From IMG/VR virus record IMGVR_UViG_3300042887_002362, positions 1-38,276 of that record: a DNA stretch of 38,276 bases; one strand, 5' to 3'. Below the pieces are notes generated by a model. The model did not search any database. It was not told where the DNA came from and saw nothing but the letters and a program-made list of their open reading frames with translations. Origin of the DNA: a virus. Shown here piece after piece: positions 1 through 30,041 of the stretch (position 1 is its first letter; each line of letters starts with the position of its first letter). The translations under genes and the position numbers were made by a program.

Positions 1-1446
1 TTGTGTTTCTGTTACTCCTGTACATACGTTAATTCTGGTTTGAGGAAAAGAAACACCATCACATTCAGTAGAAACATCTGGTGTCCATGGAGAAAAAGTG
101 AGAGGTTTTGTTCCAGGTATGGTTTGGGTTTCTATATCACCAGAACAGGACTTGGTCCTCTGTTGAGGACAAGGTGTTCCTGCACAAACAGTAGATTCAT
201 CTGGTGTCCATGCAGACCAAGTGTCTGGTCTTGTTCCGGTTGCATTTTGTGTTTCAACTGTATTGGTACATCCTAATACTCTAGTCTGAGGAAAAGAAAC
301 ACCGTCACATATGGTAGAAGCATCTGGTGTCCATGCAGATGCATTATTAGGTGCTGTTCCTGTTGCCGTTTGGGTTTCTGTAGCACCAGAACAGGACTTA
401 GTCCTGTTCTGCGTAAAGGTAGTTCCTGCGCATACTGTATTCGTGGAAGGTGTCCATGCAGACCAAGTGTCTGGTCTTGTTCCGGTTGCATTTTGTGTTT
501 CAACTGTATTGGTACATCCTAATACTCTAGTCTGAGGAAAAGAAACACCGTCACATATGGTAGAAGCATCTGGTGTCCAAGGTGATGCATTGTTAGGTGC
601 TGTTCCTGTTGCCGTTTGGGTTTCTGTAGCACCAGAACAGGACTTCGTTCTGTTCTGCGTAAATGTGGTTCCATCACAGACTGTAGAAGCATCTGGTGTC
701 CATGCAGACCAAGTGTCTGGATTTGTTCCTGTTGCTGTTTGTGTTTCAACTGTATTGGTACATCCTAATATTCTGGTCTGAGTAAAGGAAATGCCGTCGC
801 ATATAGTAGACGCATCTGGTGTCCATGCAGATGCATTATTAGGTGCTGTTCCTGTTGCAGTTTGGGTTTCTGTTACACCAGAACAGGACTTAGTCCTGTT
901 CTGCGTAAAGGTAGTTCCTGCGCATACTGTATTCGTGGAAGGTGTCCATGCAGACCAAATATCTGATCTTGTTCCTGTTGCTGTTTGGGTTTCAACTGTA
1001 TTGGTACATCCTAATACTCTAGTTTGTGTAAAAGAAACACCATCACATATAGTAGAAGCATCTGGTGTCCAAGGTGATGCATTGTTAGGTGCTGTTCCTG
1101 TTGCTGTTTGGGTTTCCGTAGCACCAGTGCAAATATTGGTTCTGGTCTGTGAAAAAGAAATACCTGCACAAACGGTATTAGTGGCTGGTGTCCAAGGAGA
1201 AAAAGTAAGAGCCTTTGTTCCGGTTGCTGTTTGGGTTTCTGTAGCACCAGAACAGGACTTGGTCCTGTTCTGTGTAAATGTAGTTCCTGCGCAGACTGTA
1301 TTCGTGGCAGGTGTCCATGCAGACCAAATATCTGATCTTGTTCCTGTTGCTTGCTGAGTTTCTGCTACTGATGTGCAAAGATCAATTCGAGTTTGAGCAA
1401 AGGATACACCATCGCACACAGTAGACGCATCTGGTGTCCATGCACT
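1..1446 (-). repeat. 123-bp coding tandem repeat with 246-bp super-period
   Basis: Eleven full units and one partial unit of 123 bp encode the 41-aa module. Copies two units apart are closest: 203-333 and 449-579 are identical over 131 bp at an offset of 246. This suggests recent expansion by unequal recombination of a two-unit block. The period is a multiple of three throughout, so changes in copy number would keep the reading frame. Confidence 0.9.
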
Positions 1447-1518
1447 ATATCCGCTAGTACACACAGCGGGTGGTTTAAATATTGGTGGTGGTGGGAGTAA
1501 TGATGGTCCTGGTGGCAT
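1..1518 (-). CDS. Tandem 41-aa cysteine-repeat surface protein (C-terminus beyond window)
   Basis: A minus-strand reading frame with no stop runs from the ATG at 1518 through the left edge (506 codons visible). It opens with a proline-rich leader (MPPGPSLLPPPPIFKPPAVC) and then has 11 complete 41-residue repeats and a partial twelfth. The consensus is roughly SAWTPDASTVCDG, then SFTQTR, a second Cys and ETQTATGT, with two Cys per unit. Units alternate between two types, so the DNA has a 246-bp higher-order period. The W..W, CxG and TQxR spacing faintly recalls thrombospondin type 1 repeats, but I would not assign that family. The start lies 12 nt after the stop of the upstream fibre gene, so they are probably co-transcribed. 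The function is inferred as an elongated, possibly disulfide-bonded virion-surface or fibre protein. A similar module occurs in the adhesin at 12467-13711. Confidence 0.85.
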   Translation of the reverse strand, partial: MPPGPSLLPPPPIFKPPAVCTSGYSAWTPDASTVCDGVSFAQTRIDLCTSVAETQQATGTRSDIWSAWTPATNTVCAGTTFTQNRTKSCSGATETQTATGTKALTFSPWTPATNTVCAGISFSQTRTNICTGATETQTATGTAPNNASPWTPDASTICDGVSFTQTRVLGCTNTVETQTATGTRSDIWSAWTPSTNTVCAGTTFTQNRTKSCSGVTETQTATGTAPNNASAWTPDASTICDGISFTQTRILGCTNTVETQTATGTNPDTWSAWTPDASTVCDGTTFTQNRTKSCSGATETQTATGTAPNNASPWTPDASTICDGVSFPQTRVLGCTNTVETQNATGTRPDTWSAWTPSTNTVCAGTTFTQNRTKSCSGATETQTATGTAPNNASAWTPDASTICDGVSFPQTRVLGCTNTVETQNATGTRPDTWSAWTPDESTVCAGTPCPQQRTKSCSGDIETQTIPGTKPLTFSPWTPDVSTECDGVSFPQTRINVCTGVTETQ

Positions 1519-1530
1519 AATAGTGTTTAA

Positions 1531-3555
1531 TTATTGAATAAATGGAAACAAATCAGCAGCTATTTGAAAATTATTATTTGTTATTTTACATAATATTGAT
1601 CTATCTCCGTATTGAACATTATTTACACATAATAAATATTTTTCTCCTTGAATTAATTTTGAATTTCCGTTTGTATTCATACATTTGACTAAAAACCATT
1701 TATATGTACTTAATATCATATATGGTTCAATTGATCCGGAATAATAAATTGGTGTTGGTCCTGTAATATTGATCCCATTTACACCCCGTATTGGTGTAAT
1801 AGTGTCATTAGAAAGAGTTAATAAACTTCCTCTGGACATAGAACTTTCCGCTTGGCGCAATGAATCATCAAGGTCATTATATGTTGCTGAATTGAAAGGA
1901 GATTTTGCATCAGGTGAAAAAGCAACCTGAAATAAACAAGTATCATCTATTCTTGATTGTGACCACAATGAAGCAAGAGGTAACTTTACAGTCAATGGTT
2001 TTATACCAATATCTGTGTAACCTATTTTAGTTTTCTTTGATGCACCTGCAGTATAATCTTCATAAATTGCTACACCATTATCTCTTGATACCGCAACCCA
2101 ATCAAATCCATAATTTTGCACAAAAAATGATGTCCAATTTTGAATAGGAGGTAATGTAGCAAGAGTATGAATATATTGCCCAGTGCCACAAGTTGTTGCA
2201 AATAATCCACGAACTTCATCTAAAATTTCAATTGTTTCTCCTCCATTTGATAAACCTTCATATGCCTGATGTGTACCAGTATATTTTAAATTACCAATTA
2301 CCTCTTTTGTAAAAAGTAAAGTTTGTGTTGTATTATCAAAAACAACAGGCTTTTCATTATTTTCAAGTTTTAAATTTGTTATATCTTCAAAATAATTTGG
2401 GATAGTAATAATATTTCCATAAAATGTATTTTGAATTTTAAATAAACATTTTTGATTAATAGAACTTGTTTGTATAAAAAGTGTACCGGATTCGGTTTTG
2501 GGGTTATTCCCACCAATATAAATTATATCATTATCTGGACTTTGATTATTTTTTAAAACAAAAAAACAAAAGTAACTACTTCTACTATCACCGGGTGAAA
2601 TATCTACTGATAACAGTTCAACACTAATTAAATCAGTCAATCTTGAAGGAAGTTGTAGATTGTTTCCTATAAATTCGGAGAAACTATACGTGATATTAGC
2701 GGGATCTCCACCTGAAGTAATTCCCTCTATTTTTAAAAAACTAGCATTTGTAATAGGAGAACTAAAAGTTATAATATTATTATTAAAACTATAATTACTT
2801 GGACTTATTAATGTTCCATTTCTATATACCGCCGTTATAGAACTCCAAAATATTTTTGGTATAGAAAAATAATCTCTTTGGATATATGGACCATTAAAAT
2901 TTAAAACAACTTTTCCCGATACGTTTGATTTTGCATGTACCTTTGCTCCACCATTAATATCAACTTTATTTTTTATAAAAACTGTAGCTAACGTATTATC
3001 ATAATAAAAATCACATTCTTTTAGTCCTTCTTGTAAACTACTTAAAGTTACAGATGTTACTAAATTAATATCAATTGTTGTGTTTGTTAATGATGCATTC
3101 GATATTTGGTTTGTTGCTGATAATTGAAACGGAAAAGAATTGTAAGTACAATAACCAGTGTAAGTTACATCACCACTAGTTTGATTATTTAAAAAATAAA
3201 ATATTTGTCTGTCCTCATAAAAAACATAATCTACATCTTGTATTAAAGATGTATCGTCTAATGATACACTATTTATGTTATTGATCCACCCTCTTTCATC
3301 TGGTAAATTTATAGAATAAGGTCTATGAAAAGCTACCGTACCGTTTATATCTTCCGAAAAATTTAAAATAGTTTTTGTTGCGTTTTCACTCGTCAGAATT
3401 TTTTTAATAGGTAACAAAAAATCATTTTGTTTGTTTACAAAATCAACTATATGATCTCCTTTAGATGTAAAATTATCAGAATCTCGTACAATAGGAAAAC
3501 TATCATCCGATTTGAAATCTGATGTTTGAGGCAACTGAGAAAATTTTATCGACAT
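1531..3555 (-). CDS. Probable tail-fibre or baseplate-associated structural protein (674 aa)
   Basis: The N-terminus (MSIKFSQLPQTSDFKSDDSF, then PIVRDSDNFTSKGD) matches the short attachment module that begins many phage fibre proteins, of the type K-x-SQLP...DxFPIV. The rest is a long beta-rich protein with repeated segments of the kind IxSPSNYSFNNNIITFSSPI that look like small beta-sandwich units (about residues 30-440). It ends in a C-terminal domain (about 440-674) with phrases such as WTSFFVQNYGFDWVAVSRD. No enzyme motif is visible. It ends 12 nt before the start of the repeat protein at 1518 and follows the small gene at 3576. No Shine-Dalgarno sequence precedes the ATG; ACTAAATA, a near match to the late-promoter box, lies at 3570-3563. 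The structural role is inferred from the N-terminal module and neighbours. Confidence 0.65.
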   Translation of the reverse strand: MSIKFSQLPQTSDFKSDDSFPIVRDSDNFTSKGDHIVDFVNKQNDFLLPIKKILTSENATKTILNFSEDINGTVAFHRPYSINLPDERGWINNINSVSLDDTSLIQDVDYVFYEDRQIFYFLNNQTSGDVTYTGYCTYNSFPFQLSATNQISNASLTNTTIDINLVTSVTLSSLQEGLKECDFYYDNTLATVFIKNKVDINGGAKVHAKSNVSGKVVLNFNGPYIQRDYFSIPKIFWSSITAVYRNGTLISPSNYSFNNNIITFSSPITNASFLKIEGITSGGDPANITYSFSEFIGNNLQLPSRLTDLISVELLSVDISPGDSRSSYFCFFVLKNNQSPDNDIIYIGGNNPKTESGTLFIQTSSINQKCLFKIQNTFYGNIITIPNYFEDITNLKLENNEKPVVFDNTTQTLLFTKEVIGNLKYTGTHQAYEGLSNGGETIEILDEVRGLFATTCGTGQYIHTLATLPPIQNWTSFFVQNYGFDWVAVSRDNGVAIYEDYTAGASKKTKIGYTDIGIKPLTVKLPLASLWSQSRIDDTCLFQVAFSPDAKSPFNSATYNDLDDSLRQAESSMSRGSLLTLSNDTITPIRGVNGINITGPTPIYYSGSIEPYMILSTYKWFLVKCMNTNGNSKLIQGEKYLLCVNNVQYGDRSILCKITNNNFQIAADLFPFIQ

Positions 3556-3575: not shown

Positions 3576-4154
3576 TTATTCTGGTATTAATATTTTTTCA
3601 TCAATTTCTGTAATAAAAAGTTCTAAAATATTTTGTTCCAATGCAAACCCATCTTCTGGTGCTAGTGTATTTTCTATTACAGAATTTTTAGTAGAAACAT
3701 TTAAGGTATCAACACTAGCAAACAATTTTTCTCTGATTTCTGGTATATTTAATTTTTTTGTAGGTTCTTGATCAGTTGTATTTATTGTTTTTACATTTAA
3801 GGTTTTTGTAGGAATTACCGGATCTATTGCGGTTTTGTTATCTATTACATTTAAGGTTTTTGTAGGAATTACCGGATCTATTGCGGTTTTATTATCTATT
3901 ACATTTAAGGTTTTTGTAGCAATTACCGGATCTGTTTTTGTTTTGTTATCTATTACATTTAAGGTTTTTGTAGCAATTACCGGATCTGTTTTTGTTTTGT
4001 TATCTATTACATTTAAGGTTTTTGTAGGAGTTTGTTTGGTAAAAGTTTTTAAATTCTTTACATATTCATCTAAAGATACAGTAGAACTACGATTTTCAGG
4101 TTTATTATAACTAGATTTAAAACCGTATTTTAAAATAGTTATCTCACGATCCAT
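3576..4154 (-). CDS. Unknown small protein with 18-aa tandem repeats
   Basis: This 192-aa hydrophilic protein has three parts. The N-terminus (about residues 1-40) is charged. The centre has four exact or near-exact 18-residue repeats, TKTLNVIDNKT-x-x-DPVI-x, plus a fifth partial copy; weaker copies follow (KTINTTDQEPTKKLN, SVDTLNVSTKNS). The C-terminus is acidic (LFITEIDEKILIPE). There is no signal peptide, membrane segment or catalytic motif. The repeats probably form an extended linker. Its start is 2 nt after the stop of the 141-aa gene, so it belongs to that operon. I do not recognise the family; a minor structural or assembly protein is only a guess. Confidence 0.6.
   Translation of the reverse strand: MDREITILKYGFKSSYNKPENRSSTVSLDEYVKNLKTFTKQTPTKTLNVIDNKTKTDPVIATKTLNVIDNKTKTDPVIATKTLNVIDNKTAIDPVIPTKTLNVIDNKTAIDPVIPTKTLNVKTINTTDQEPTKKLNIPEIREKLFASVDTLNVSTKNSVIENTLAPEDGFALEQNILELFITEIDEKILIPE
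3793..4029 (-). repeat. 54-bp tandem repeat, four units plus partial fifth
   Basis: Units begin at 3793, 3847, 3901, 3955 and 4009, spaced exactly 54 bp. The first two share one variant (GGATCTATTGCGG) and the next two another (GGATCTGTTTTTG), so a pair appears to have duplicated after an earlier duplication. The repeat lies in frame inside the 192-aa gene. Confidence 0.9.
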
Positions 4155-7060: not shown

Positions 7061-7819
7061 TTATTTATTAAACAACTTGGAAAATGGACATTTTGATTCT
7101 GTTACTATTTTATAACTTTTTGGTGTATGAAAGTAATCTTTATATCTGTCTAATGCCTGTGTTGTAGCTTTTCTCCATTTATAATAAAAGCCATCAAATT
7201 TCGTAGTTATGTGAGCAACAAAGTTTTTCCTTTTAATTGGAATACATTGAACAAATGGTGTTCCTTTAGGTAAAAACCCTGTAAAATCTTTTTTAATAAA
7301 AAATGGGAACGCTATAGGTGCTGGGTGTTTATCTGTATCTACTAGACCTGATAATGTTTGAAATGGTAAATCTTGATGCATGGGACTTACAAACAATGTA
7401 GACCAATTACGAGGCGTTTGAATTATCCATGGATTATTCCATTTAAGCAGTGCCGCATCGTATCCTTCTGGTATAGGATACATGAAATATTGTTCTATAT
7501 CGTGTTCATGAATTAATTTGAATTCTCCTTCATAAGAACAATTAACTATTAATTTATTATTAGTCCGACTAAAATAGCAGTCAAAAGGAGTGGATATCAT
7601 ATATCCACAAAACATAGAATCTCTAAATGGAACACATCTTTTTACTGTTAAATTTGGATTTCCATTTGAACCTATCTTTTTTTGGTCTTCTGTTTGTGTG
7701 TAATTATAGAAATTTGGCATCTCCTTGTACCAAGACGGAGGAAAACTATTAGAAGGTTTCGGCGGCGTGAAATCTCTAAAGACTTCATCATTAAAGGCTA
7801 CAAAATTTATTTTTGACAT
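7061..7819 (-). CDS. Conserved phage protein of unknown function (possibly DUF6065-like, 252 aa)
   Basis: The protein has features I associate with a roughly 240-aa family scattered through marine phages and bacteria: an early PPSWYKEMP segment, then TVKRCVPFRDSMFCGYMI, then WNNPWIIQTPRNWSTLFVSP, a GLVDTDKHPAPIAFPFF segment, and LPKGTPFVQCIPIKR. The Trp/Pro/Phe pattern suggests a beta-barrel or cupin-like fold. From memory this resembles DUF6065; I cannot verify that and no activity is established. It heads a short leftward unit; a TTGACA-containing sequence lies just upstream. There are no transmembrane segments or signal peptide. Confidence 0.6.
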   Translation of the reverse strand: MSKINFVAFNDEVFRDFTPPKPSNSFPPSWYKEMPNFYNYTQTEDQKKIGSNGNPNLTVKRCVPFRDSMFCGYMISTPFDCYFSRTNNKLIVNCSYEGEFKLIHEHDIEQYFMYPIPEGYDAALLKWNNPWIIQTPRNWSTLFVSPMHQDLPFQTLSGLVDTDKHPAPIAFPFFIKKDFTGFLPKGTPFVQCIPIKRKNFVAHITTKFDGFYYKWRKATTQALDRYKDYFHTPKSYKIVTESKCPFSKLFNK

Positions 7820-12466: not shown

Positions 12467-13711
12467 ATGGCAATAAAAATAGAAAATTTTGATAACTTTG
12501 AGGTTGCAGGAAAAACCTATGTTGGAAATTTTCCATTGTATTCATCTGATATAGTGTGTTCTATTCCTTCTGCTGTAGATGAAGAAGAAAATAATTTATT
12601 TTTAACCAGCGAGGGGGATTTTGTTAATTTTTATACTCCAACTCCTACAGTAACACCAACGAATACGCCAACGATTACACCAACTCCAGAATGGACAGGT
12701 TTTTTACCTCTTGCTTCTACTGTTTGTGTTGGTGTATCTTTCACACAAACAAATACAGATTTGAATGGTAATTTTCCAGATATAACACAAACTGCTATCG
12801 GAACAAAACAACCAACATGGACAGCATATTCTCCTGATGCATCTACTATACCATTAGGTGAGTCTTTTCAACAAACACGAACAAATGATTGTGGTGAAAC
12901 CGATACTATTACATCCATTGGTACAAAACAGCCAGAGTTTTTTGAATATTCTATAATAATATCAGCTAATGTTAATAACTACAATAATATATTACCTACG
13001 TTAACAAATAATGGTTGGAATGGTACAAAAAAAGTAAAGCTAACATTAACAGTAAATTCTGGTGTAACTGTTGGATCTACTGTCGCAACAACTGCCGCAT
13101 TAACAATACCAGCGATGCCTACTAATAGTTTGGTTTTTTTAATAAACAATGGTAATATTTATGGTGCTGGTGGTACTGCTGGTCTTGGAGGCGTTGGGGT
13201 AGCAGGTGGTGATGGTGGTAATGGTGGAACTGCATTGTCTATATCAACCCCAACAACAATATCAAATTATGGAAACATAAAAGGTGGTGGTGGCGGTGGT
13301 GGTGGCGGTGCTGGTTATTCTCAAACATATTTTCATTGTATGTGTGCTAATGCACCAATTGTATGTGGATATGGTTGTCAACCTCCTGGTTGTGTTTGTG
13401 GAAATCATAATAATGATCCAGCCTGTGCTTTCTGTGGACAGCAAACTTGGCCAACCAGAACTTATACAGGCGGAAATGGCGGAATCGGACAAGGATCGGC
13501 AAATGCTGCCGGTGTTGGTTTAAATGAAACTAGTGGTAAACTAGGTGGTGCCGGAGGTTCATTTGGAAATACCGGTTCAAATGGATCAGCTTATAATGCA
13601 ATACTTGGTGGCACAGGTGGATTGGCTGGATATTATATTAAACTATCAACAGGCGGAACATATGTTTTTGCCACAGGCTTAACAGGTAATGTTGCCGGTA
13701 GAATTGGTTAA
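12467..13711 (+). CDS. Mosaic glycine-rich adhesin with 41-aa-type repeats and Cys-rich insert
   Basis: Domains in order: an N-terminal region (1-54); a Thr/Pro linker (about 55-75, TPTPTVTPTNTPTITPTPE); two diverged copies of the repeat found at 1-1446 (about 75-165, including PLASTVCVGVSFTQTNTD and SPDASTIPLGESFQQTRT); and a domain shared with the two adhesins at 27145-30041 (ANVNNYNNILPT...NNGWNGTKKVKL...FLINNGNIYGAGGTAG). Then follow a nine-glycine run (about 273-281), a Cys-rich insert with eight Cys (about 285-330), and GGNGGIGQG with further GG turns. INNGxIxGAGG followed by poly-Gly is typical of phage receptor-recognition adhesins of the T-even Gp38 kind, packed as polyglycine helices. 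The role is inferred as host binding at a fibre tip. Confidence 0.75.
   Translation: MAIKIENFDNFEVAGKTYVGNFPLYSSDIVCSIPSAVDEEENNLFLTSEGDFVNFYTPTPTVTPTNTPTITPTPEWTGFLPLASTVCVGVSFTQTNTDLNGNFPDITQTAIGTKQPTWTAYSPDASTIPLGESFQQTRTNDCGETDTITSIGTKQPEFFEYSIIISANVNNYNNILPTLTNNGWNGTKKVKLTLTVNSGVTVGSTVATTAALTIPAMPTNSLVFLINNGNIYGAGGTAGLGGVGVAGGDGGNGGTALSISTPTTISNYGNIKGGGGGGGGGAGYSQTYFHCMCANAPIVCGYGCQPPGCVCGNHNNDPACAFCGQQTWPTRTYTGGNGGIGQGSANAAGVGLNETSGKLGGAGGSFGNTGSNGSAYNAILGGTGGLAGYYIKLSTGGTYVFATGLTGNVAGRIG
13283..13309 (+). repeat. GGN trinucleotide tract (poly-glycine)
   Basis: A run of GGT/GGC codons encoding nine consecutive glycines forms a GC-rich island in AT-rich DNA. Similar tracts lie near 28674-28706 and 29608-29645 on the other strand. 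Slippage in units of three would change the glycine number without frameshift. Confidence 0.75.
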
Positions 13712-13798: not shown

Positions 13799-16700
13799 AT
13801 GTCCGATAAACAAAATCCATATAGTTATAAAATTTGGTTCTCTTTACAAGAGAATAATTTAACAGAAGATCCACAAACTTTATACATGGAGTATTTAAAA
13901 GATTGGTATTTTGCTAATAATAAACAATTAATAAATCCTAAACAAAAAATTAAAGAAGAATATATTCAGTTGATAAAAGATCTGAGTTTTCTTTTTAATA
14001 AAGATGATAAAGATAGATTTTTACAATCAATAGATTATAACAATAAAGAAGAATTAATTTATAATATTCCATTATTTGCAAAAAAATTAAAAGAGATAGC
14101 CAGAGTTTTAAATGCAAAAAGAACATCTATTAAAAATTCTAAATTAAAATATAATTTGATAGGTTCTAATGATGGTATAGAAACTTTATTTTACGAGTAT
14201 CTTTTGAGATCTTTTACTAAAAGTGATAATGCAATCACTCAATTACCTACATCTAATTTAAAATATGAATTTCCGTCTTTATCCGCAGTAAAAGATGATT
14301 TTTTTATAGAAATAGAAGAATTATATGATACTAATGTATATCATGATTCTGATCCAGGTGTTGATATAAACCAATATGTAAGCGTAGAAGATATATTAAA
14401 CGAATATCCGTTTGAAGATCTAAGTGATGAACAAATGGTGGGAATATTAAATTCCAGGTTCATTCCTAGATCAACTAATAATTTTTTAAGTAAAGTTTAT
14501 CAAGCATATATAACATCGTTAACAGGTGATGTAACAACAGATGCAGAAAAAACAAAACTTTTTAATTACGAGGTAAATGCATCAGAAAAATATATGGGAG
14601 AAACCGTGTATGGTTTAACTGCAATCAGATTGATAGACACCGGAAGACCTGATTATGTATTACAAACAGATTTTTCAACCGGTAATAATTGGTTTGTATG
14701 GCCCAGTGGTAGTAGAGTTATAAATGATACTAATAGTGATAACTATTTAGATACAATTTTATTAAATGATTCTAATTTAGTAGGTTCTGGTGCTACTGGT
14801 GGAAACTCATATAAAAATTCCGATTTAATTTTTACAGATAAAAATGGTTATGTTGAGGGTGCGTGGTTAAAAGGTCCTAGAACATATACGGTTAGCACTT
14901 CCACGAGTGTAAACATTTTACCTAATGCTGTTAGAGAGTTTATATACCCATATGTTGGGTATAATTTATCAACAAAAGGATTAAATTGGATCGGTTTTAG
15001 TTTAACCGATCATGACTATAAAAATTATGATTTACTAAGCAATGAGCAAAAACTTAATTTAATGATGAAATACTATACGGAAAACCTTCCGTTGAGTACC
15101 TCTAATTCATTTTATTTAAATCAGTCCACTTTAGTCGAATTGGGAGCAGAGTCAGGAGACAATGTATTAACAGGTGATACAATTTTAAAAAGACCTCATA
15201 GAAATGTTATAACACAACTTTCAAATGAAAGTAACGATGGCACAACAGAAGCGGCATTTTTGTATAAATTTCAAAAAACCGATATACCAATATCATTAGG
15301 ATTGAATAATATATATTGGCCAATTAAATCTTTTGATTCATCTGAAAATATACCAATAACAATAAAAAAAGATAATTGCCTTCCTTCCCATTTAATAAAT
15401 TTTAAAATATCTGAGGTGATGAATGGTGCTATAGCAGGATTAACATTCAATACATCAGACGTTATATATAAATTAAATAGTAGATTTTCCGATCCAATAG
15501 AAGCAGCATGGTTAGGGTCTGGATCTATTCAAAATTTGGACGTACTTACCGATGCTATACAAATATATGATAGCGATGCAACAAATTGTGCAAAATACAT
15601 AGATGGTCCAACACAAGCAGCATTAAATTTAAAAATCTCACCATCTGAAGCAGTTTCTTTCATTTGGTGTGATATAGATACAAAAGCAGATGATGTATTT
15701 AAAAACTTTGAACATGCACCAAATTGTGAATATGGTAAAAAAAATCACGACTATTACTCAGATCAAAATTATTTAAATCCCGAACAGTTAAATCAAACAA
15801 ATTATTGGAAAACTTGTACATGCAAAGCATTACATTATTCACCGATTGGAAATATCGGGGATTTACCAACCGATTATCATTCCATAGCAGATTATCTTTT
15901 TGCTGATCCACAGGGAGTGATGGAAAAATTTACATTAAAAACATGGAAAGATACTAGAGGATTTGATGCTTATTCAAGTCCTCAATTTGCTCATTATAAA
16001 ATAGATGGAAAATCCGATACTCCGATTGGTTGGGGAGACGGTTTCTGGAAAACCGGAAATGGTAAACCGTTTATATTAAAAACTGGTAGAAGATATACCT
16101 ATATAAGATCTTCATTAAGAAAAGATGATACATCTAGTTTAGAAGGTAATGACATATCACCGTTTTATGTTGTAAAATACAGTTATAAAAAATTAAGAGG
16201 TTATTGTAAACAAGATGAAACAGCTATCAATAATTGTTACGATTTATACATATTATTAGATACTAGTAAATCTCAAATACTGTCAATAGAGGATACCAAA
16301 GAGTTAGTTTCGAATATTTCTAAAACTATATTAAATAATTCCGAAAACAAAAATATTCAAATTGGTGTTATAGCTTTTAATGATGCTCCAACCATGTTGT
16401 CATATTTGACAAATTCATCTGGTGCATTGGAATTTTATGTTAGAAACGTTGTAGTAAATGAAAACTTTCCAGATTATAGAACCGATATATATGAGGCGTT
16501 TGTAACAGCCGATCATTTTTTATACCAAGAATATCCCGAAAATGCAAGCTCGGAATTTAATTATACAGATTTATGTAGAAATATTAATACTTTAATAATA
16601 GACAGAAATTTAAAATCTAAAACCTTAAATTTGCCACAACAAAATTGTAAAAAGAAAATATTGATAGTTAGTGATGGAGAAGAAAATGAAAATATAACAG

Positions 16701-18304
16701 AAGTTTTAACATATGCTAATAATTTAAAGAAAAACAAAAATATAGAAATTTATGGGGTTGATATAGGTATAAGGTCAAATAACAACACATTAATAGAAGA
16801 CATAGTGAGTGATTCTTCCAAATATTTTAATTTAGAAGGATATTTAAAAGAAGGAAACGGAGATGTTATAACTTTTGCTCAAATAATAGCATCACAAATA
16901 AATGGATGTGCATCGGTTGTTCCAAGTTGGAAAAAGGCAATTAAAAACGAAAACGGTATATGGGAAGGTGTGAACGAGAAATCTGATATGATATTAAGAC
17001 CAGGTGATTTCTTAATATATGTACATTCTTCTCAAATAGATTATATCGGAGAAGATATAAATTCTAATTTTTCACAAAATGGTGTTTCATTTACAATAAA
17101 TGCAAAACTTAATGGTTGGGATTATGATTTAAGAAAATTCGATCCGGAATTTATTGGTGATATATATGGCGCAAAACCATTTTGGGGAATGTCTGATACT
17201 ATACCATCAACCGAAAAAAACTTTAATAAAGAAACAAATCATTTTTCTGGTCAAATCAGATTTTATAATGATTATGTTCCGGTAAGACAACCAGAATTGT
17301 CTAATATGACAATAGATAATGGAAATTTCATACAGTACTTCAGAAGAGTAAACACATCTTTTGATTGGATTCAACCTATAACATTAACAACTACATTATC
17401 TAATTACGAATGGTGCAAAATAATATTTGATAGGTATACATCAAACTTAAGTGAAATATTAAAAAATGGAACTTTTGATTTTTATGGACAAAGTAGCGAT
17501 GAACCAAGTGATATGTTATTAGAAAGTTATTCCGATTTTAAAATATCTAGATATAACTATTTTGCAAGAACAGATTTTACATATACTCAAGATCTTTATA
17601 ATACAAATAGATGCGAAAATACATTTGTAGTATTTAATACCGGTTCAGTTTTAACGCCATCAGAACCATATGTAAATTTGTTAAATGTTCATTATCCGAC
17701 TATTGCAACTGTTTCTATTCCAAAATATTTAGTACCCGAAAAATATTTTGGTGGTTATTTGAATCCTCTTAATTTGGGTGTTTCATATTATAGAGGTAAA
17801 GGTTATGATATACAAATAAATAAAGATCAACTCACTGTTTATGATCAAACAAGTGCAGAAAGAACTTTCTTTGATATAGCAAAATATTCCAATAGAAATA
17901 GAGGACTTACTAAAAAAGATCAGGTGTCACCGACTACCATAAAGGATATAGATAATAGGTGGATGGTGGAGTCTTTCAATTCTGGAAACAGAATGGGAAT
18001 GAATATTAACACATTGGAAAATCAAAAGTTCACCCCATATCAAAGTTATTTTGAAATTCTTGGTAAGAACAACAATGGAGTAACCAGACAAAACGATTCT
18101 ATTGAATTTTGGAGTGATACACTGCCTGCTATATGGAACGACGAAAAAAATTATCCATTAACTTTCAGAAAAGAATTAATGGCTCAAACGTATGAACTAA
18201 GAAAATCTGGACTTTTAGTAGATAAGGGAATTATATCGAATTGGAGAACTGACATATTTGGTTATGAATATGGTTTATATAAACCAGAAAATGTTGTTTG
18301 TTAA
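13799..18304 (+). CDS. Giant virion structural protein with VWA domain (1501 aa)
   Basis: The N-terminus (1-140) is helical and charged, with YIQLIKDLSFLFNKDDKDRF and IPLFAKKLKEIARVLN followed by KYNLIGSNDGIETLFYEYLL, a pattern I associate with large structural proteins of T4-like marine phages. A beta-rich central part follows. A von Willebrand factor A domain spans about 815-1036 with a complete metal-ion-dependent adhesion site: D821-T-S-K-S825, Thr895 (RTDIYEAF) and Asp959 (IVSDGEEN). VWA domains bind ligands through a divalent metal, so the domain could mediate adhesion or virion assembly. The C-terminus (1040-1501) is another beta-rich region ending VDKGIISNWRTDIFGYEYGL. It ends overlapping the convergent gene by 4 nt. 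Exact position in the virion is unknown. Confidence 0.75.
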   Translation: MSDKQNPYSYKIWFSLQENNLTEDPQTLYMEYLKDWYFANNKQLINPKQKIKEEYIQLIKDLSFLFNKDDKDRFLQSIDYNNKEELIYNIPLFAKKLKEIARVLNAKRTSIKNSKLKYNLIGSNDGIETLFYEYLLRSFTKSDNAITQLPTSNLKYEFPSLSAVKDDFFIEIEELYDTNVYHDSDPGVDINQYVSVEDILNEYPFEDLSDEQMVGILNSRFIPRSTNNFLSKVYQAYITSLTGDVTTDAEKTKLFNYEVNASEKYMGETVYGLTAIRLIDTGRPDYVLQTDFSTGNNWFVWPSGSRVINDTNSDNYLDTILLNDSNLVGSGATGGNSYKNSDLIFTDKNGYVEGAWLKGPRTYTVSTSTSVNILPNAVREFIYPYVGYNLSTKGLNWIGFSLTDHDYKNYDLLSNEQKLNLMMKYYTENLPLSTSNSFYLNQSTLVELGAESGDNVLTGDTILKRPHRNVITQLSNESNDGTTEAAFLYKFQKTDIPISLGLNNIYWPIKSFDSSENIPITIKKDNCLPSHLINFKISEVMNGAIAGLTFNTSDVIYKLNSRFSDPIEAAWLGSGSIQNLDVLTDAIQIYDSDATNCAKYIDGPTQAALNLKISPSEAVSFIWCDIDTKADDVFKNFEHAPNCEYGKKNHDYYSDQNYLNPEQLNQTNYWKTCTCKALHYSPIGNIGDLPTDYHSIADYLFADPQGVMEKFTLKTWKDTRGFDAYSSPQFAHYKIDGKSDTPIGWGDGFWKTGNGKPFILKTGRRYTYIRSSLRKDDTSSLEGNDISPFYVVKYSYKKLRGYCKQDETAINNCYDLYILLDTSKSQILSIEDTKELVSNISKTILNNSENKNIQIGVIAFNDAPTMLSYLTNSSGALEFYVRNVVVNENFPDYRTDIYEAFVTADHFLYQEYPENASSEFNYTDLCRNINTLIIDRNLKSKTLNLPQQNCKKKILIVSDGEENENITEVLTYANNLKKNKNIEIYGVDIGIRSNNNTLIEDIVSDSSKYFNLEGYLKEGNGDVITFAQIIASQINGCASVVPSWKKAIKNENGIWEGVNEKSDMILRPGDFLIYVHSSQIDYIGEDINSNFSQNGVSFTINAKLNGWDYDLRKFDPEFIGDIYGAKPFWGMSDTIPSTEKNFNKETNHFSGQIRFYNDYVPVRQPELSNMTIDNGNFIQYFRRVNTSFDWIQPITLTTTLSNYEWCKIIFDRYTSNLSEILKNGTFDFYGQSSDEPSDMLLESYSDFKISRYNYFARTDFTYTQDLYNTNRCENTFVVFNTGSVLTPSEPYVNLLNVHYPTIATVSIPKYLVPEKYFGGYLNPLNLGVSYYRGKGYDIQINKDQLTVYDQTSAERTFFDIAKYSNRNRGLTKKDQVSPTTIKDIDNRWMVESFNSGNRMGMNINTLENQKFTPYQSYFEILGKNNNGVTRQNDSIEFWSDTLPAIWNDEKNYPLTFRKELMAQTYELRKSGLLVDKGIISNWRTDIFGYEYGLYKPENVVC

Positions 18305-22234: not shown

Positions 22235-22256
22235 ATTTGATAACTTTTAAAATGTT
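22225..22256. terminator. AT-rich hairpin between convergent genes
   Basis: A perfect 11-bp inverted repeat (AACATTTTAAA at 22225-22235 and TTTAAAATGTT at 22246-22256) with a 10-nt loop overlaps the stop codons of both converging genes. Its position suggests a bidirectional terminator. It lacks a U tract and GC-rich stem base, so it is not a textbook intrinsic terminator. Confidence 0.45.
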
Positions 22257-25200
22257 ATTGACACGTATTAATATATTCTATTGATTCGGTTTCTTTTTTA
22301 GTGGAATCCAACCAATTTATTTTATATAAATCTGTGTGTGCTGGTGTTATTTTTTTAATATTTGATCTTATAGAATTTTCTATTAATTTTTTAACATCAT
22401 CATTTGCTTTTAAATTATGTATATTGATATTGTAATATTTGCTTTTATTTGTTGGTAATTGCATTTGAAACCAATGTTTGATTTCTTCTATATAATTTCT
22501 AACACCGATAGGAACATTCCACTTGAGCGGGCCTTTATCTATTGATAAATCGGATGCAAAATATATTTGAGAAATTTCACCCTGCGTTAATGCTTTATTG
22601 TACATCACAATTTGGCCAACATCTGCTACTAATTTGTATGCATCATTTATTTGTATTAAATCGTTTAAAGATGTGTTCTTAACATTAGATGCACCAACCA
22701 GTAAAGATGACTTATAGTCATACTGTATTTGATATTTTGCTTTTTGAAATTCTACAGCATCTACTAAATAAGTATCTATATAATATTTGGCACATCCATT
22801 TGTTGAATCAAAAACAAATGTAAAATTATGCCAGCCTGGTGGTAATTCCGATATATCATGTGTTAATTTGCTTAGTTGTCCATCTTTGCCATTAGCAGAT
22901 GCTATTTTAAATTTCCAACTTAAATTCTTTTTTAATGCACCAAATTTTCTTAAATATTGATATGAACTAAAATCACCAATTGCTTTAAATGTGTGATTTT
23001 CTTGTACTGTGGAGACATCTACAGTTAATAAACCATATAAATTTAATCTAGACACAAGAACACCTTCAGAATTTATTAAATAAACTATTTTATCTGAATC
23101 GTCTATTAAGACTGCTAATTCTTCTGTTTTATTATTTGTTTCAATACATGTAACACTAGTTTTTGGTGCTCTTATAAAATTTAAAAACCTATATTGACCA
23201 TCATATACAAAACAATTTTCGTCTATTAAAGAATTTTTACCTATGCTTTTTGTAAATTCAAATTTATTATCATTTATATTAAATTTTGTCAAACCATCTT
23301 TAACATGAACTATCCATAAATTATTGTTAACATCACATGTTATTTGTTGAACTTGTCCTATGTTAGCATATATTTGTCTTTCTTTATAAAGATTTCCACC
23401 TATAACTTCCCACAAATTGTTATTATTATCTATACATGACGATTCTCCATATGAATATTTTAAAACATCATCCAACCCAACTTCAATTCTGTTATATGGA
23501 TATGTTAAAACCGATGTATTAATATAATTTCCATATGTATTTAATTTAACTACCAGTTTATTTTGTTTATCGTATAAATATAAATTTTCATTCGAATCAA
23601 TTTCAACTTGATCTATATAAGACATTCTATTAGAAATATTTTTTTCAATTGTAATTTTACCTTCTATACTGTATTTTCTTAATATTTTATTTTGTACATC
23701 AATAATCCAATATGTCAAATCTGCCATTCTTTGTACTATACAATTTGAATGGTATAAATCTTTTGGTAAATTTATATCGTCTAAATGTGATAATTTATAA
23801 TTTAAATTATAAGCAATTCCTGCCGTTTTATCTAATACAGTGAATATAGGTGTAGTTATGGATGCCTCATTTATAAAACCAAATCCACTGTCATAATAAT
23901 TTCCAAATATTTGTTGACCATTTATGTTTGCCCAATCATTAACTCTCAACCAAAACGATACAGTAAGATTGTTTTTTTCTAATAATGTATTTTTTGCCGG
24001 TAAAACTATGTGGTTTTTACCATCTAATGTTATATAATCATTATGAAAATTATTTTCATCATTATAAAATAATAATCCATTATTTTTATATGGACTATTA
24101 TCTATTAAAGGCGATGTATTAAAATTTGATATATCTAATATTTTTGAACCTAATGGATTATAAAAATCAGCACTCAAATAAGATAAAAATGTTTTAGAGT
24201 TTTCTTGACCTGATCTAAAATATATATATTGACAACCAGGTTCAAATACTAAAGTAGATGGTTCATCCCACACTTCAAAATCGACATTTGGATTTAATTT
24301 TTCATTATATAATAAATCAGTGTTTGTCAATTTTGTATCAACTGTATAATATGCTGAATTGAAATACCTATCAACCCAAAGTTTATCACCTGATTGATTT
24401 CCAGATAACCACGAGCATACCCATGTACCATCTTGTCTTTTAATAGATGTGGGTTGTGGTTGTCCAGGTGTTATTTCATCATATGGCATCTGTTTTGCGT
24501 ATATTCTATCTGAAACATACGGTAATTCACCAGAATATGCACCATCATCAGCTATACCAGAATTATGTACTGACAATCTTTTTGTGGTAGGGGGAAAATA
24601 AAAAACTGTATATTTATCTGGAGCAAATTCTCTTAAATATGTATTAGTAGAAAAACCTAAATGTACACTTTCTAAACCATGATGTTGATTAGTACCTGAA
24701 AAAATACCAGTATATTTTCTTCTTATAGATGGATAGTTTTCGATATATTCAACTCCTTCGGAATAATTGTATTCCGGTGTTTGGTAATTCTTCAAACCAT
24801 GTATTTGAAGTTTGTATGTTACTGTTTCAGTTTGATCATCAAATAATGGATTTTCATATGGAAAGAGTGCTAAATAATTTTGTAAATAATTTGCAGTCAA
24901 ACTTTCCTGTGTTGGTGTCAAATTTTTTTGAGATAATAATGGACTTGCTATATATTTTGTAAAATAACTATTTTTAACATTGTCATATATTAAATCTTGT
25001 TTTTTAAAAGATACAAATTTTAATATTGAACTTGTTGGTAATGCTGTATTTAAACTATATGAAATATTAGTTAATTGTAAGATATTTTTATTGCCAGTAT
25101 TTGCATAAACTATTTTAGAAAAATTACTATTATAAGAAAATAATACGATATTATCATCACCTAAAATATAGTTAAATCTTTGAGTATCTGATGGTGGTGA

Positions 25201-25677
25201 TATCTTAGTTGATGGGAATATATTATTGGATGTATCATACGTTATATATAAACCATCATTTGTTTCCAATGAAACACAATCATTATCATCATCAAACCAA
25301 ACTTTTATAGTGTCTAAATATGAATAATTAATATTGTTTGTTTTTACTAATCGAAGGTTGTTTTGATATGATGACAATGTTATTATGAAAGAATCTGTGG
25401 ATTTTAAAGGACTTTCTATTTTTGACAACTTTATTACATCTTGGGGTGTATTTTTATCTGCAAAAATATATTCAGAATTTAAAAAACCAGTTAGAAACAT
25501 ACCGGTTCTTTTGTTTATTTTTACATCTTTAGAGTTATTTAAAAATTCATAAATATTTGCTTTAAAACCATTTTCAAAAATAATAGGATGACCTATATTA
25601 TCTATTTTTTCTCCCATCACATCAAAATTAATAGGATACCAATATATATCTGATATTTTATTTGAATATAGTTCCAT
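22255..25677 (-). CDS. LamG-domain virion protein with inserted beta-propeller (1140 aa)
   Basis: The N-terminal half (1-540) is beta-rich with no recognised family. About residue 545 a concanavalin/LamG domain begins (YITLDGKNHIVLPA; NNLTVSFWLRVNDWANINGQ, then QIFGNYYDSGFGF). After GIAYNLNYKL it gives way to repeated short blades of an NHL/SMP-type propeller (about 650-870; IDSNENLYLYDKQNKLVVKL, IDNNNNLWEVIGGNLY, CDVNNNLWIVHVKDGL). The LamG fold resumes near 905 (LPPGWHNFTFVFDSTNGCAK; VADVGQIVMYNKALTQGEI), through about 1035. The C-terminus (KWNVPIGVRNYIEEIKHWFQ ... IRSNIKKITPAHTDLYKINW) looks like a virion-attachment module. A carbohydrate-binding, tail-associated role is inferred. First of several minus-strand genes from the convergent hairpin. 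Confidence 0.75.
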   Translation of the reverse strand: MELYSNKISDIYWYPINFDVMGEKIDNIGHPIIFENGFKANIYEFLNNSKDVKINKRTGMFLTGFLNSEYIFADKNTPQDVIKLSKIESPLKSTDSFIITLSSYQNNLRLVKTNNINYSYLDTIKVWFDDDNDCVSLETNDGLYITYDTSNNIFPSTKISPPSDTQRFNYILGDDNIVLFSYNSNFSKIVYANTGNKNILQLTNISYSLNTALPTSSILKFVSFKKQDLIYDNVKNSYFTKYIASPLLSQKNLTPTQESLTANYLQNYLALFPYENPLFDDQTETVTYKLQIHGLKNYQTPEYNYSEGVEYIENYPSIRRKYTGIFSGTNQHHGLESVHLGFSTNTYLREFAPDKYTVFYFPPTTKRLSVHNSGIADDGAYSGELPYVSDRIYAKQMPYDEITPGQPQPTSIKRQDGTWVCSWLSGNQSGDKLWVDRYFNSAYYTVDTKLTNTDLLYNEKLNPNVDFEVWDEPSTLVFEPGCQYIYFRSGQENSKTFLSYLSADFYNPLGSKILDISNFNTSPLIDNSPYKNNGLLFYNDENNFHNDYITLDGKNHIVLPAKNTLLEKNNLTVSFWLRVNDWANINGQQIFGNYYDSGFGFINEASITTPIFTVLDKTAGIAYNLNYKLSHLDDINLPKDLYHSNCIVQRMADLTYWIIDVQNKILRKYSIEGKITIEKNISNRMSYIDQVEIDSNENLYLYDKQNKLVVKLNTYGNYINTSVLTYPYNRIEVGLDDVLKYSYGESSCIDNNNNLWEVIGGNLYKERQIYANIGQVQQITCDVNNNLWIVHVKDGLTKFNINDNKFEFTKSIGKNSLIDENCFVYDGQYRFLNFIRAPKTSVTCIETNNKTEELAVLIDDSDKIVYLINSEGVLVSRLNLYGLLTVDVSTVQENHTFKAIGDFSSYQYLRKFGALKKNLSWKFKIASANGKDGQLSKLTHDISELPPGWHNFTFVFDSTNGCAKYYIDTYLVDAVEFQKAKYQIQYDYKSSLLVGASNVKNTSLNDLIQINDAYKLVADVGQIVMYNKALTQGEISQIYFASDLSIDKGPLKWNVPIGVRNYIEEIKHWFQMQLPTNKSKYYNINIHNLKANDDVKKLIENSIRSNIKKITPAHTDLYKINWLDSTKKETESIEYINTCQ

Positions 25678-27144: not shown

Positions 27145-29118
27145 TTATGTTAATGTTCTTGTTGTAATTGTTGTATATCCACAATAACTATACGTGTTAC
27201 CACTTTGACCGCAGAAACATCCACCATAGCATGGGTCACCATTAAATCCAGGTGGACAACCATCGATAGGATCATTATCAGTACACGTACATGTAACAAT
27301 CCCGTTACAAACTGTTGAAATATTTGTAACGATATTAACCGATAGTGTCGTAGAACAAGTTGCACCATTAATTGTAAGTGTCATGGTTTTAGTTCCTGCT
27401 GTAGATGTAGTAACATTTAATGTCAGTAGACCATATCCTTTATATAAAGCAAAATTTCCGGTTAAGCTTGCGCCATTTATATCTCCAGTAGTAACTCCTG
27501 TTATAGTATATGGTATATTTCCATCTTCTAATAAAGAAGTATCTAACTTGAACTCTACTGTTGATGCATTTATGTTTTTATTTAATATATATAAGTTTGG
27601 ATACACTCTCCAATTTTTATTCTTTGCCGTAATCCAATTACAAGAACATGTTCCCGTATTATCATTAACATAAATGCTCCATTCACTTGTTATAGATGGA
27701 GATTTGGTTGGCAATTGGTTAAATATGTCATTTATATTGGTTGCTGACATATTGTTATTTTTTATTGATATTACTCTGGTTTCATCATTTGGTGTATATA
27801 TATTAGATAATCCACTTAAATTTCCGCTTAAATTATTATTATCCACATATAATTTTTGAAATGAAACACAAGAAGTTAAATTTAAAGTTGATAAATTATT
27901 ATCATTAAAATTAATTGTTTTTAATTTTATACATTGTGATAAATTTAATGTTGTAATATTTTGTGTATTACAAGTTAAAGTTTCTAACAATAAACAATTT
28001 GTTAAATTTATTTGTCCTCCCAAATTTGTAGGAGAATTGACAACGATTGATGTTAACGATTGTCTTGGCTCAATTTGAAGATTATTACCATCAATTAATA
28101 ATGTTACACCAGCACCATTTGTTGGATTAGTTGTGATAGAAGGAGCAGAACTCCAGCCACTCCATAATACAGGTTGTGTTTGTGCTCCTGTACTAGAACA
28201 ACTATATCCTCTTTCATCGTTGCTACTTTGCAAACTTAAAAACTCTGAACCATCAATCCAACATCCACCTTCTCCCCCATTACCAAATGACGTAGTGGAA
28301 CCAGAAAGTCCATTTTGTCCATCTTGCCCCCAATCACCACCGTTGCCACCATCACCTGTAAATATACCTGCTTCGTATAATATACCATCTAATCCCAATC
28401 CAAAATTTTTATTATAACCTTGACCTCTTCCGCCGTTTGCCCCTGTATATGTTATACAGTTACGACTTTTAGTATTACATGTGCCAACTGTAGACGCATT
28501 ACAACTAGATGCATTAGTATAATATTGGCAATATGAACCACAATTACTTCCAACTGTACAGTCATTTGGAGTAGAACAGTAATTCACTCCTTGGCAATTA
28601 AGTATACAACATTTATTACAGTATTGGGCACCTCCGCAATTAGTAGATGATATTGATACCCAAGTTTTATACGCCCCTCCTCCCCCTCCGCCTCCCCCGC
28701 CTCCTCCATATATATTTCCAGTATTGGATATAATGATATTTCTTTTGGTATATATGGCAGTGCCGCCCTTTCCTCCGTTACTACCCGCTATGCTACCACC
28801 ACCTGACCCAATAGTTCCACTTGCCCCATATATATTCCCCTTGTTTATAATAATAACCTGATCATATGGTCTAAATGTAGTTGAACTATCAGCAGGAATT
28901 GTGATAGCTGGCGTTAATGGGTTTTCTGAATATATATTCACGCCCGAATTAATTGTGATTATACCTCTAAGTTTTTTTCCACCATTTCTATTCCATCCAT
29001 AATTAGTGGTTGCTAAATTATTTATACGTGTCCATAAATTTAAATTTTGTTGGTCTGTAGTTATCGTATCAACTACATTTAACCAACTACCATAATAACC
29101 TAATCCTAGTGATGCCAC
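27145..29118 (-). CDS. Glycine-rich adhesin with leucine-rich repeats and EGF-like tail (657 aa)
   Basis: The start is GTG at 29118, overlapping the upstream TAG by 1 nt. The N-terminus MASLGLGYYGSWLNVV matches the next adhesin. VIIINKGNIYGASGTIGSGG leads to a poly-glycine run (about 139-152), then a Cys-rich insert with 12 Cys (about 160-225) and TYTGANGGRGQG with more GG turns. From about 350 the protein differs from its paralogs: leucine-rich repeats of the type LTxCxxLxTLxxxxNNLSTLNL (for example LKTINFNDNNLSTLNLTSCV) to about 470, an Ig-like region, and a C-terminal Cys cluster (NGIVTCTCTDNDPIDGCPPG, then CYGGCFCGQ) resembling EGF-like modules. Probably a host-receptor-binding adhesin. 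Bacterial-type LRRs on a phage adhesin are unusual. Confidence 0.75.
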   Translation of the reverse strand: MASLGLGYYGSWLNVVDTITTDQQNLNLWTRINNLATTNYGWNRNGGKKLRGIITINSGVNIYSENPLTPAITIPADSSTTFRPYDQVIIINKGNIYGASGTIGSGGGSIAGSNGGKGGTAIYTKRNIIISNTGNIYGGGGGGGGGGGAYKTWVSISSTNCGGAQYCNKCCILNCQGVNYCSTPNDCTVGSNCGSYCQYYTNASSCNASTVGTCNTKSRNCITYTGANGGRGQGYNKNFGLGLDGILYEAGIFTGDGGNGGDWGQDGQNGLSGSTTSFGNGGEGGCWIDGSEFLSLQSSNDERGYSCSSTGAQTQPVLWSGWSSAPSITTNPTNGAGVTLLIDGNNLQIEPRQSLTSIVVNSPTNLGGQINLTNCLLLETLTCNTQNITTLNLSQCIKLKTINFNDNNLSTLNLTSCVSFQKLYVDNNNLSGNLSGLSNIYTPNDETRVISIKNNNMSATNINDIFNQLPTKSPSITSEWSIYVNDNTGTCSCNWITAKNKNWRVYPNLYILNKNINASTVEFKLDTSLLEDGNIPYTITGVTTGDINGASLTGNFALYKGYGLLTLNVTTSTAGTKTMTLTINGATCSTTLSVNIVTNISTVCNGIVTCTCTDNDPIDGCPPGFNGDPCYGGCFCGQSGNTYSYCGYTTITTRTLT

Positions 29119-30041
29119 TAACTCTGTCCTCCTAATACATTAGTTTGATTTAGTAATGTAATTAATGATATTCCTTCTACCCAATTTCCACCGTTTCCTT
29201 TAGTGCCACCACTTCTTATTGGACTAGAATTTCCATCAACACCATTTTGGCCCCATGTTCCTCCGTTACCTCCCGTTCCTCCGTTACCAACTCCAGCAAA
29301 CCCATTTTGTTGAGGTATACCGTATCCTTGTCCAACACCACCATATCCACCGGTTGCAGATGTCCATGTTTTTGTACTACAATAATATGTTTGTCCATCA
29401 GATAGTGTTTTCCCATTACCATCTCCATCACAGCATTCCGGACAATTAAAACAATCGCTACAATATTGGCTACATCCACTATTAGTGGAACTACAGTAAT
29501 AATTTCTTGTATCATTCCATTGAGGTAATAATTTACTAACCGGACAATCATCACAATTACTAGCACTACAACAACTCTTAACTTGTGCTCCTATCGTGTA
29601 AGTTTCTTGTCCACCGCCTCCACCGCCTCCGCCTCCGCCTCCACCATATATATTTCCATTATTATTTAAATATATATTTTTTAATACTTTTAATGCGGTT
29701 CCTCCATTTCCTCCATTTCCTCCGTTTGTTGGGGTTTGATCGCCTTCTCCTCCAATTCCAGCGGTTCCACTAGCACCTAAAATATATCCATTATTTATAA
29801 TAAATATTTGATCATATGATCTAAAAAGATTTTGTGGTACTAATAATGCAGGAATTGATGCACTTGTTGAATATATGCTGTTACCTGTTGGTATTGTTAT
29901 AAATGCTTTTAACTTTTTACTTGTATTAGACCATCCACTATTCGAGGTAATAAAATTGTATAAATTTACATTAGCTTGTGTTGTTAAATTAAGTACAACA
30001 TTATACCAGCTTCCATAAAAACCTAGACCTAGTGATGCCAT
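29118..30041 (-). CDS. Glycine-rich adhesin with Cys-rich insert (307 aa)
   Basis: Starts MASLGLGFYGSWYNVV, paralogous to the following gene. Residues 15-110 (LTTQANVNLYNFITSNSGWS ... YDQIFIINNGYILGASGTAG) are the conserved adhesin fold, then NNNGNIYGGGGGGGGGGGGQ (about 126-145). A Cys-rich insert with 12 Cys (about 152-222; KSCCSASNCDDC; CSQYCSDCFNCPECC) follows, then TGGYGGVGQGYG and repeated GGNGGTWGQNG turns. The fold is that of Gp38-like receptor-recognition proteins whose tips pack as polyglycine helices. It lies 4 nt after the tail-fibre-like gene, the usual order for fibre then adhesin in T-even phages. It probably sits at the fibre tip and sets host range. Confidence 0.75.
   Translation of the reverse strand: MASLGLGFYGSWYNVVLNLTTQANVNLYNFITSNSGWSNTSKKLKAFITIPTGNSIYSTSASIPALLVPQNLFRSYDQIFIINNGYILGASGTAGIGGEGDQTPTNGGNGGNGGTALKVLKNIYLNNNGNIYGGGGGGGGGGGGQETYTIGAQVKSCCSASNCDDCPVSKLLPQWNDTRNYYCSSTNSGCSQYCSDCFNCPECCDGDGNGKTLSDGQTYYCSTKTWTSATGGYGGVGQGYGIPQQNGFAGVGNGGTGGNGGTWGQNGVDGNSSPIRSGGTKGNGGNWVEGISLITLLNQTNVLGGQS

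Follow-up and report, generated by a model that had tools for sequence, protein, structure and literature searches.

Locus and organization of the repeat gene

The DNA analysed here, referred to below as the window, comprises the 38,276 bases of an IMG/VR virus record. At its left edge the minus strand carries a gene fragment (1..1518) which begins with an ATG at 1518..1516 and runs for 506 codons to base 1, as described in the first-pass annotation of this DNA; a stop at the edge, which that annotation had named as evidence against the gene, was absent from the visible part. The N-terminal 26 amino acids (MPPGPSLLPPPPIFKPPAVCTSGYSA; 1441..1518, minus strand) are Pro-rich with no obvious signal peptide, and contain a Cys, C20 (1459-1461, minus strand), ahead of the first repeat. 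These are followed by eleven complete units of 41 amino acids (88..1440, minus strand; unit k spans 1318-123(k-1) to 1440-123(k-1)), termed TSR-like below for their likeness to thrombospondin repeats (TSRs). Each opens with WTP at a spacing of exactly 41 residues, and a twelfth unit is cut by the contig end after 29 amino acids (1..87, minus strand). The repeat ORF and its 41-residue array were therefore confirmed, including the eleven complete copies counted earlier. The C-terminus lies beyond the contig, and at least 12 copies are present in the visible part. The possibility of a circular contig, with the right-edge ORF as the lost C-terminus, was ruled out, the right-edge ORF having no repeat. 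Gene callers that allow genes to run past contig ends would call the repeat gene; the antisense and frame-shifted ORFs mentioned in the first-pass annotation do occur inside the array, without support as genes.

The repeat gene starts 12 nt past the stop of an upstream gene on the same strand (1531..3555, minus strand), which encodes 674 amino acids and had no PHROG match. The N-terminus of its product (MSIKFSQLPQTSDFKSDDSFPIVRD) is one that we take to be like those of phage tail fibres, and the gene may thus encode a fibre protein. Elsewhere in the window, the region 30049-32169 gave short matches to a tail fibre of cyanophage P-SSM2 (54% over 78 aa) and to tail-fibre PHROGs, and three Gly-rich genes matched tail-fibre, Gp38-like or related profiles. 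The repeat gene is thus probably located within a run of tail-fibre and adhesin genes, and the matches of this cluster suggest that the window probably belongs to a large tailed phage, distantly akin to aquatic T4-type phages.

Several other genes of the window have unusual features. In three adhesin-like Gly-rich proteins (12467-13711, plus strand; 27145-29118 and 29118-30041, minus strand) a Cys-rich stretch breaks the poly-Gly region, with 11, 29 and 12 Cys per protein, respectively, which suggests that the fibre tips carry variable loops with disulfide bonds. The first of these genes, an adhesin gene that also encodes TSR-like units (see below), adjoins a gene for a 1501 aa protein (13799-18304, plus strand) in which Pfam recognises a von Willebrand factor A domain (E 5.7e-8); this domain is known in combination with TSRs in the apicomplexan TRAP proteins. 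A protein of 1140 aa (22255-25677, minus strand) has a laminin-G/concanavalin-like domain at its C-terminus (Pfam E 3.2e-6), and one of 192 aa (3576-4154, minus strand) contains 4.4 copies of an 18-aa repeat (TKTLNVIDNKTKTDPVIA; 54 bp, 95% match). The best phage relatives of a 252 aa protein (7061-7819, minus strand) were from haloarchaeal tailed viruses, with about 29% identity (E 2e-20; PHROG 7084, function unknown).

Variation and constraint among the repeat units

Every one of the 12 units has Cys at positions 9 and 22, and unit 11 has an additional one at position 14. The alternation of A and B units with two Cys each, proposed in the first-pass annotation, thus stands for the Cys pair, while the order is imperfect (A B B A B A B A B A B A) and unit 11 departs from the count. 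The W-x2-W and TQxR spacing was likewise found in part only: W-x2-W occurs in 5 of the 12 units, the first position being Y, F or A in the rest, and TQxR varies as SQTR, PQTR, AQTR and PQQR.

Tandem repeat analysis (TRF) reported periods of 123, 246 and 492 bp with scores from 628 to 1710, and a two-unit block was therefore probably duplicated during the history of the array. Amino-acid identity between units ranges from 43 to 100%; units 8 and 10 do not differ in DNA sequence, and units 5 and 9 share 97% identity. Because pN among the units (0.24) is lower than pS (0.52), the array appears to be translated and under constraint at the protein level. The higher G + C content of the array was considered as a mark of recent transfer and set aside: the excess falls mostly at the second codon position and so reflects amino-acid content.

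Predicted fold and resemblance to thrombospondin repeats

AlphaFold2 gave a confident model for 4.3 units (pLDDT 92, from a shallow alignment) and an unchanged layout for one unit (pLDDT 89), and not the disorder that had been raised as the outcome against a folded repeat. The predicted unit consists of an irregular Trp strand with isolated bridges, a short turn, and a hairpin with two strands of 7-9 residues; in the 4.3-unit model the hairpin strands are at residues 25-32 and 38-45, with C21 ahead of the first strand and C34 in the turn.

Foldseek comparison of the 4.3-unit model with the PDB found properdin, a chain of TSRs, as the top match (E 1.1e-3, prob 0.82), and UNC5D was another high-ranking TSR match. 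TSRs made up 6 of 10 matches listed in one re-alignment and 6 of 12 in the other, with Z scores of 2.0-2.8 overall; TSR3 of BAI1 reached Z 2.8 with 41 of 44 residues aligned. One unit alone had no significant Foldseek match (E above 1). In a viral structure library the top match was a podovirus S-layer-homology fragment (E 7e-4, TM 0.27).

Like the TSRs of properdin, BAI1, UNC5D and thrombospondin-1, the phage unit is predicted to have a three-strand layout, with a Trp strand followed by the B-C hairpin, and it has W-x2-W in some units, Q-x-R-x-K where TSRs have R-x-R-x-R, and Cys in the A-B and B-C loops. It differs in length (41 residues versus about 55-60), in Cys content (two per unit versus three disulfides per domain) and in the absence of a third Trp. 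In terms of the WxxWxxW/RxRxR ladder of TSRs, strand B of the phage unit provides one Arg, and where W-x2-W is incomplete the first position is aromatic or Ala. At the sequence level the resemblance was not significant: Pfam TSP_1 matched neither the window protein nor its relatives, one plasmid relative reaching only TSP1_2 at E 0.085; the profile comparison with TSP1 suggested in the first-pass annotation failed, since in hhalign against TSRs 2 of 100 and 12 of 100 shuffles scored equally high; and a PDB sequence search gave no meaningful match. The low TSR scores may be partly due to the units being only 41 residues long. The thrombospondin-like design is thus upheld with moderate confidence at the level of the predicted fold, by structure prediction and fold comparison, but not by the Pfam and profile-profile tests; given the low fold scores and the failed profile tests, we describe the unit as TSR-like and not as a member of TSP_1.

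A second gene with TSR-like units

A unit profile search of the window, the only approach that detected them, found two further units in a Gp38-like adhesin gene (12467..13711, plus strand). The encoded protein comprises an N-terminal part, a Thr/Pro-rich linker, the two divergent TSR-like units and a Gly-rich region. The units were recovered by an HMM made from the long array only (E 3.3e-16; best shuffle 9.0 bits) and by one made from cellular units only (E 1.1e-8; see below). Unit 1 (12692..12814, plus strand) retains a sole Cys, in the A-B loop (12725-12727), and unit 2 (12815..12937, plus strand) a sole Cys in the B-C loop (12890-12892), with Pro at the A-B loop Cys site. The gene product matched a tail-fibre PHROG (6e-9) and, just short of the cut-off, Pfam GP38 (E 4.8e-5). 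Its Gly-rich tip region is similar to that of T-even Gp38 tail-fibre adhesins, to which the TSR-like dimer and the Cys-rich loop are additional.

Relatives in phages and cells

No comparable array was found in 50,697 phage records, and protein-guided scans of those IMG/VR records that could be searched found nothing closely related, in agreement with the earlier view that such a Cys repeat array is unusual in phages. Two degenerate DNA patterns matched IMG/VR by chance only, tblastn in phages gave no match or E above 0.5, and a search of the available literature found no paper on TSRs in phage tails. A domain of a tail-sheath-like protein from Pseudomonas phage BUCT553 and its relatives reached E 0.012 only and is not claimed as a relative; a match in Gordonia phage Skog was rejected.

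TSRs are usually treated as an extracellular module of animals and protists. Among species genomes, tandem units of the form WTP/WSP-x3-T-x-C-x-G-x2-F-x-Q are encoded in Pacearchaeota, Diapherotrites, Nanoarchaeota, Collierbacteria and one gammaproteobacterium, that is, in DPANN archaea, Patescibacteria and a single gammaproteobacterial genome. These cellular repeats (L005-L009, L020, L022, L028 and L029) share the phage unit by sequence, with 40-50% identity by tblastn and HMM, and are also in tandem. They usually have four Cys per unit, with CC or CxxC at the junction, and 2-7 copies, whereas the units of the phage array have two Cys each and number at least 12; the hairpin of the cellular units is mostly shorter. 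A unit HMM made solely from cellular copies detected the long array at E 4.2e-65, with shuffles at or below 9.0 bits. A 34-unit profile was carried by 5 of 87, 3 of 233 and 5 of 180 genomes in three related groups, counts that take in the genomes which supplied the profile, and the distribution is therefore patchy.

Weaker members were found in plasmid proteins adjoining pilus genes. A longer-loop relative of the unit on a Termitidicoccus plasmid (L065) adjoins a PilT/PilU ATPase gene, and on the Pseudomonas plasmid pSE5369-VIM (L066) a longer-loop unit is located in an Ig-like (Big_1) protein adjoining a prepilin gene; both may be adhesin modules associated with pili. The search of the Diapherotrites phylum yielded a protein (L030) with a WTP unit flanked by C-x3-YSNWGAC-NGTQTRN repeats, a further prokaryotic repeat that looks like a TSR and is not matched by Pfam TSP_1.

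The unit corresponds to no named family in Pfam or NCBIfam, except that the window protein matched Galaxin_repeat (PF24748) with 41.4 bits against a curated cut-off of 28. We consider it very improbable that the repeat protein is galaxin-like on this account. Galaxin repeats each have a di-cysteine motif, whereas the phage array has no CC, and the nearest cellular relative scored only 16 bits against the same family; the match is probably due to repetition and to a spacing around Cys-x-Gly that is common to both.

Cysteine register and proposed disulfides

The four Cys of the cellular unit are named here a (before the Trp strand), b (A-B loop), c (B-C turn) and d (after strand C); the CC or CxxC at the junction is made up of d from one unit and a from its successor. 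In the three-strand layout a and c are neighbours at one end, as are b and d at the opposite end, so that the junction CC or CxxC would provide two intra-unit bonds in the cellular form. The phage array lacks both a and d at all 11 junctions seen, and retains b at position 9 (C9) and c at position 22 (C22).

That each unit is held by its own C9-C22 disulfide, the array being a string of independent cystine-braced beads, would fit the presence of the pair in every unit, but we regard it as unlikely. Both models place C9 before the hairpin and C22 in its turn, about eight strand residues apart and at opposite hairpin ends, and within-unit pairing is therefore not expected. In addition, the second gene divides the pair across two units, and the junction Cys of the cellular units come in pairs, as though each bonds a different neighbour. 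The disulfide-stabilised spike of the first-pass annotation thus remains plausible, while pairing within the unit is contradicted by the predicted topology, which points to pairing between neighbours.

We propose that C9 of unit i pairs with C22 of unit i+1, as b of one unit would face c of the next once a and d are gone; the phage form would have dropped both junction Cys and bonded the leftover partners directly. Consistent with a joint loss, 20 of 21 cellular junctions have two Cys, one has none and none has a single Cys, the Cys-less junction being that of L022, a protein recovered in the Patescibacteria search. Adding the phage array and the second gene, each as one count, gives 20 junctions with both Cys, three with neither and none with a single Cys (Fisher 1/1771, for junctions that are not independent, several coming from one genome). 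Unit 1 has no predecessor and is preceded by a single Cys, C20, at position a, which would pair with its hairpin-tip Cys and so cap the start of the disulfide chain; L051, in which the tip Cys is present and the N-terminal Cys absent, is an exception to this cap rule, as is the third Cys of unit 11 to the staple pattern. In the second gene, b alone in unit 1 and c alone in unit 2 are the Cys set for one staple; the chance of this form with two Cys left from four is 1/6, which is support and not proof.

A similar junction is found in properdin, in which Cys132 and Cys133 are adjacent at the end of TSR1: Cys133 pairs with Cys93, a residue of the A-B loop of this same domain, and Cys132 with Cys170 in the B-C loop of the next domain, TSR2 (PMC6736995). 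As in our proposal, a disulfide runs from the end of a TSR to the B-C loop of the following one. In properdin this bond is made through a CC pair on top of complete intra-domain bonds, whereas in the phage the A-B loop Cys itself would be the partner.

Alternatively, the Cys could remain reduced as leftovers of a four-Cys cellular ancestor, the rod relying on hairpins and Trp/Arg stacking alone. Phage tail parts are assembled in the reducing cytoplasm, and half of the Cys of the cellular unit are missing from the phage units; yet the remaining Cys are kept in 12 of 12 units while other positions vary, and those missing are the junction pairs and not random ones. We therefore consider reduced Cys rather unlikely, though less so than a disulfide within each unit. 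The proposed inter-unit disulfides would close only once the protein leaves the cytoplasm, and the staples would stiffen the rod after lysis.

Possible function of the repeat protein

From its genomic context, the most likely function of the repeat protein is that of a stalk, with the TSR-like unit most likely a spacer. This reading is based on the position of the repeat gene in the tail-fibre and adhesin cluster, and on the second gene, in which TSR-like units precede the Gp38-like adhesin region. The repeat gene would be a long version of the pair set between the Thr/Pro-rich linker and the Gly-rich adhesin region of that gene. Each unit would comprise an irregular Trp-bearing strand A and a B-C hairpin with Q-x-R-x-K/L in strand B, and twelve units at about 3.3 nm each, as estimated from strand length, would form a rod of about 40 nm.

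Proteins closely related in sequence are cellular, of the surface type, and have fn3 domains or hydrophobic segments at the N-terminus, as would be expected if the protein were a host-derived surface adhesin carried as cargo and located outside the virion. This is distinctly improbable in our view: no signal peptide is apparent, the gene follows its upstream neighbour by 12 nt inside the tail-fibre and adhesin cluster, and the second protein with TSR-like units bears a Gp38-like tip. We slightly favour a long thin tail-fibre or adhesin stalk of at least 12 TSR-like units in series, with inter-unit disulfide staples capped by C20. The fuller account, in which the phage unit is a two-Cys variant of the four-Cys cellular bead with only inter-unit disulfides, forming a stapled beta-rod as fibre stalk and a miniature version in the second adhesin, is more tentative, at a little short of even.

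A compact TSR-like unit that occurs in DPANN archaea and Patescibacteria as well as in a phage adhesin cluster suggests either that TSRs have a prokaryotic branch not recognised so far or that the fold is convergent. The proposed switch of partners, from intra-unit to inter-unit bonds in the absence of the junction Cys pair, is simple and, if true, would offer a neat principle for designing stiff protein rods.
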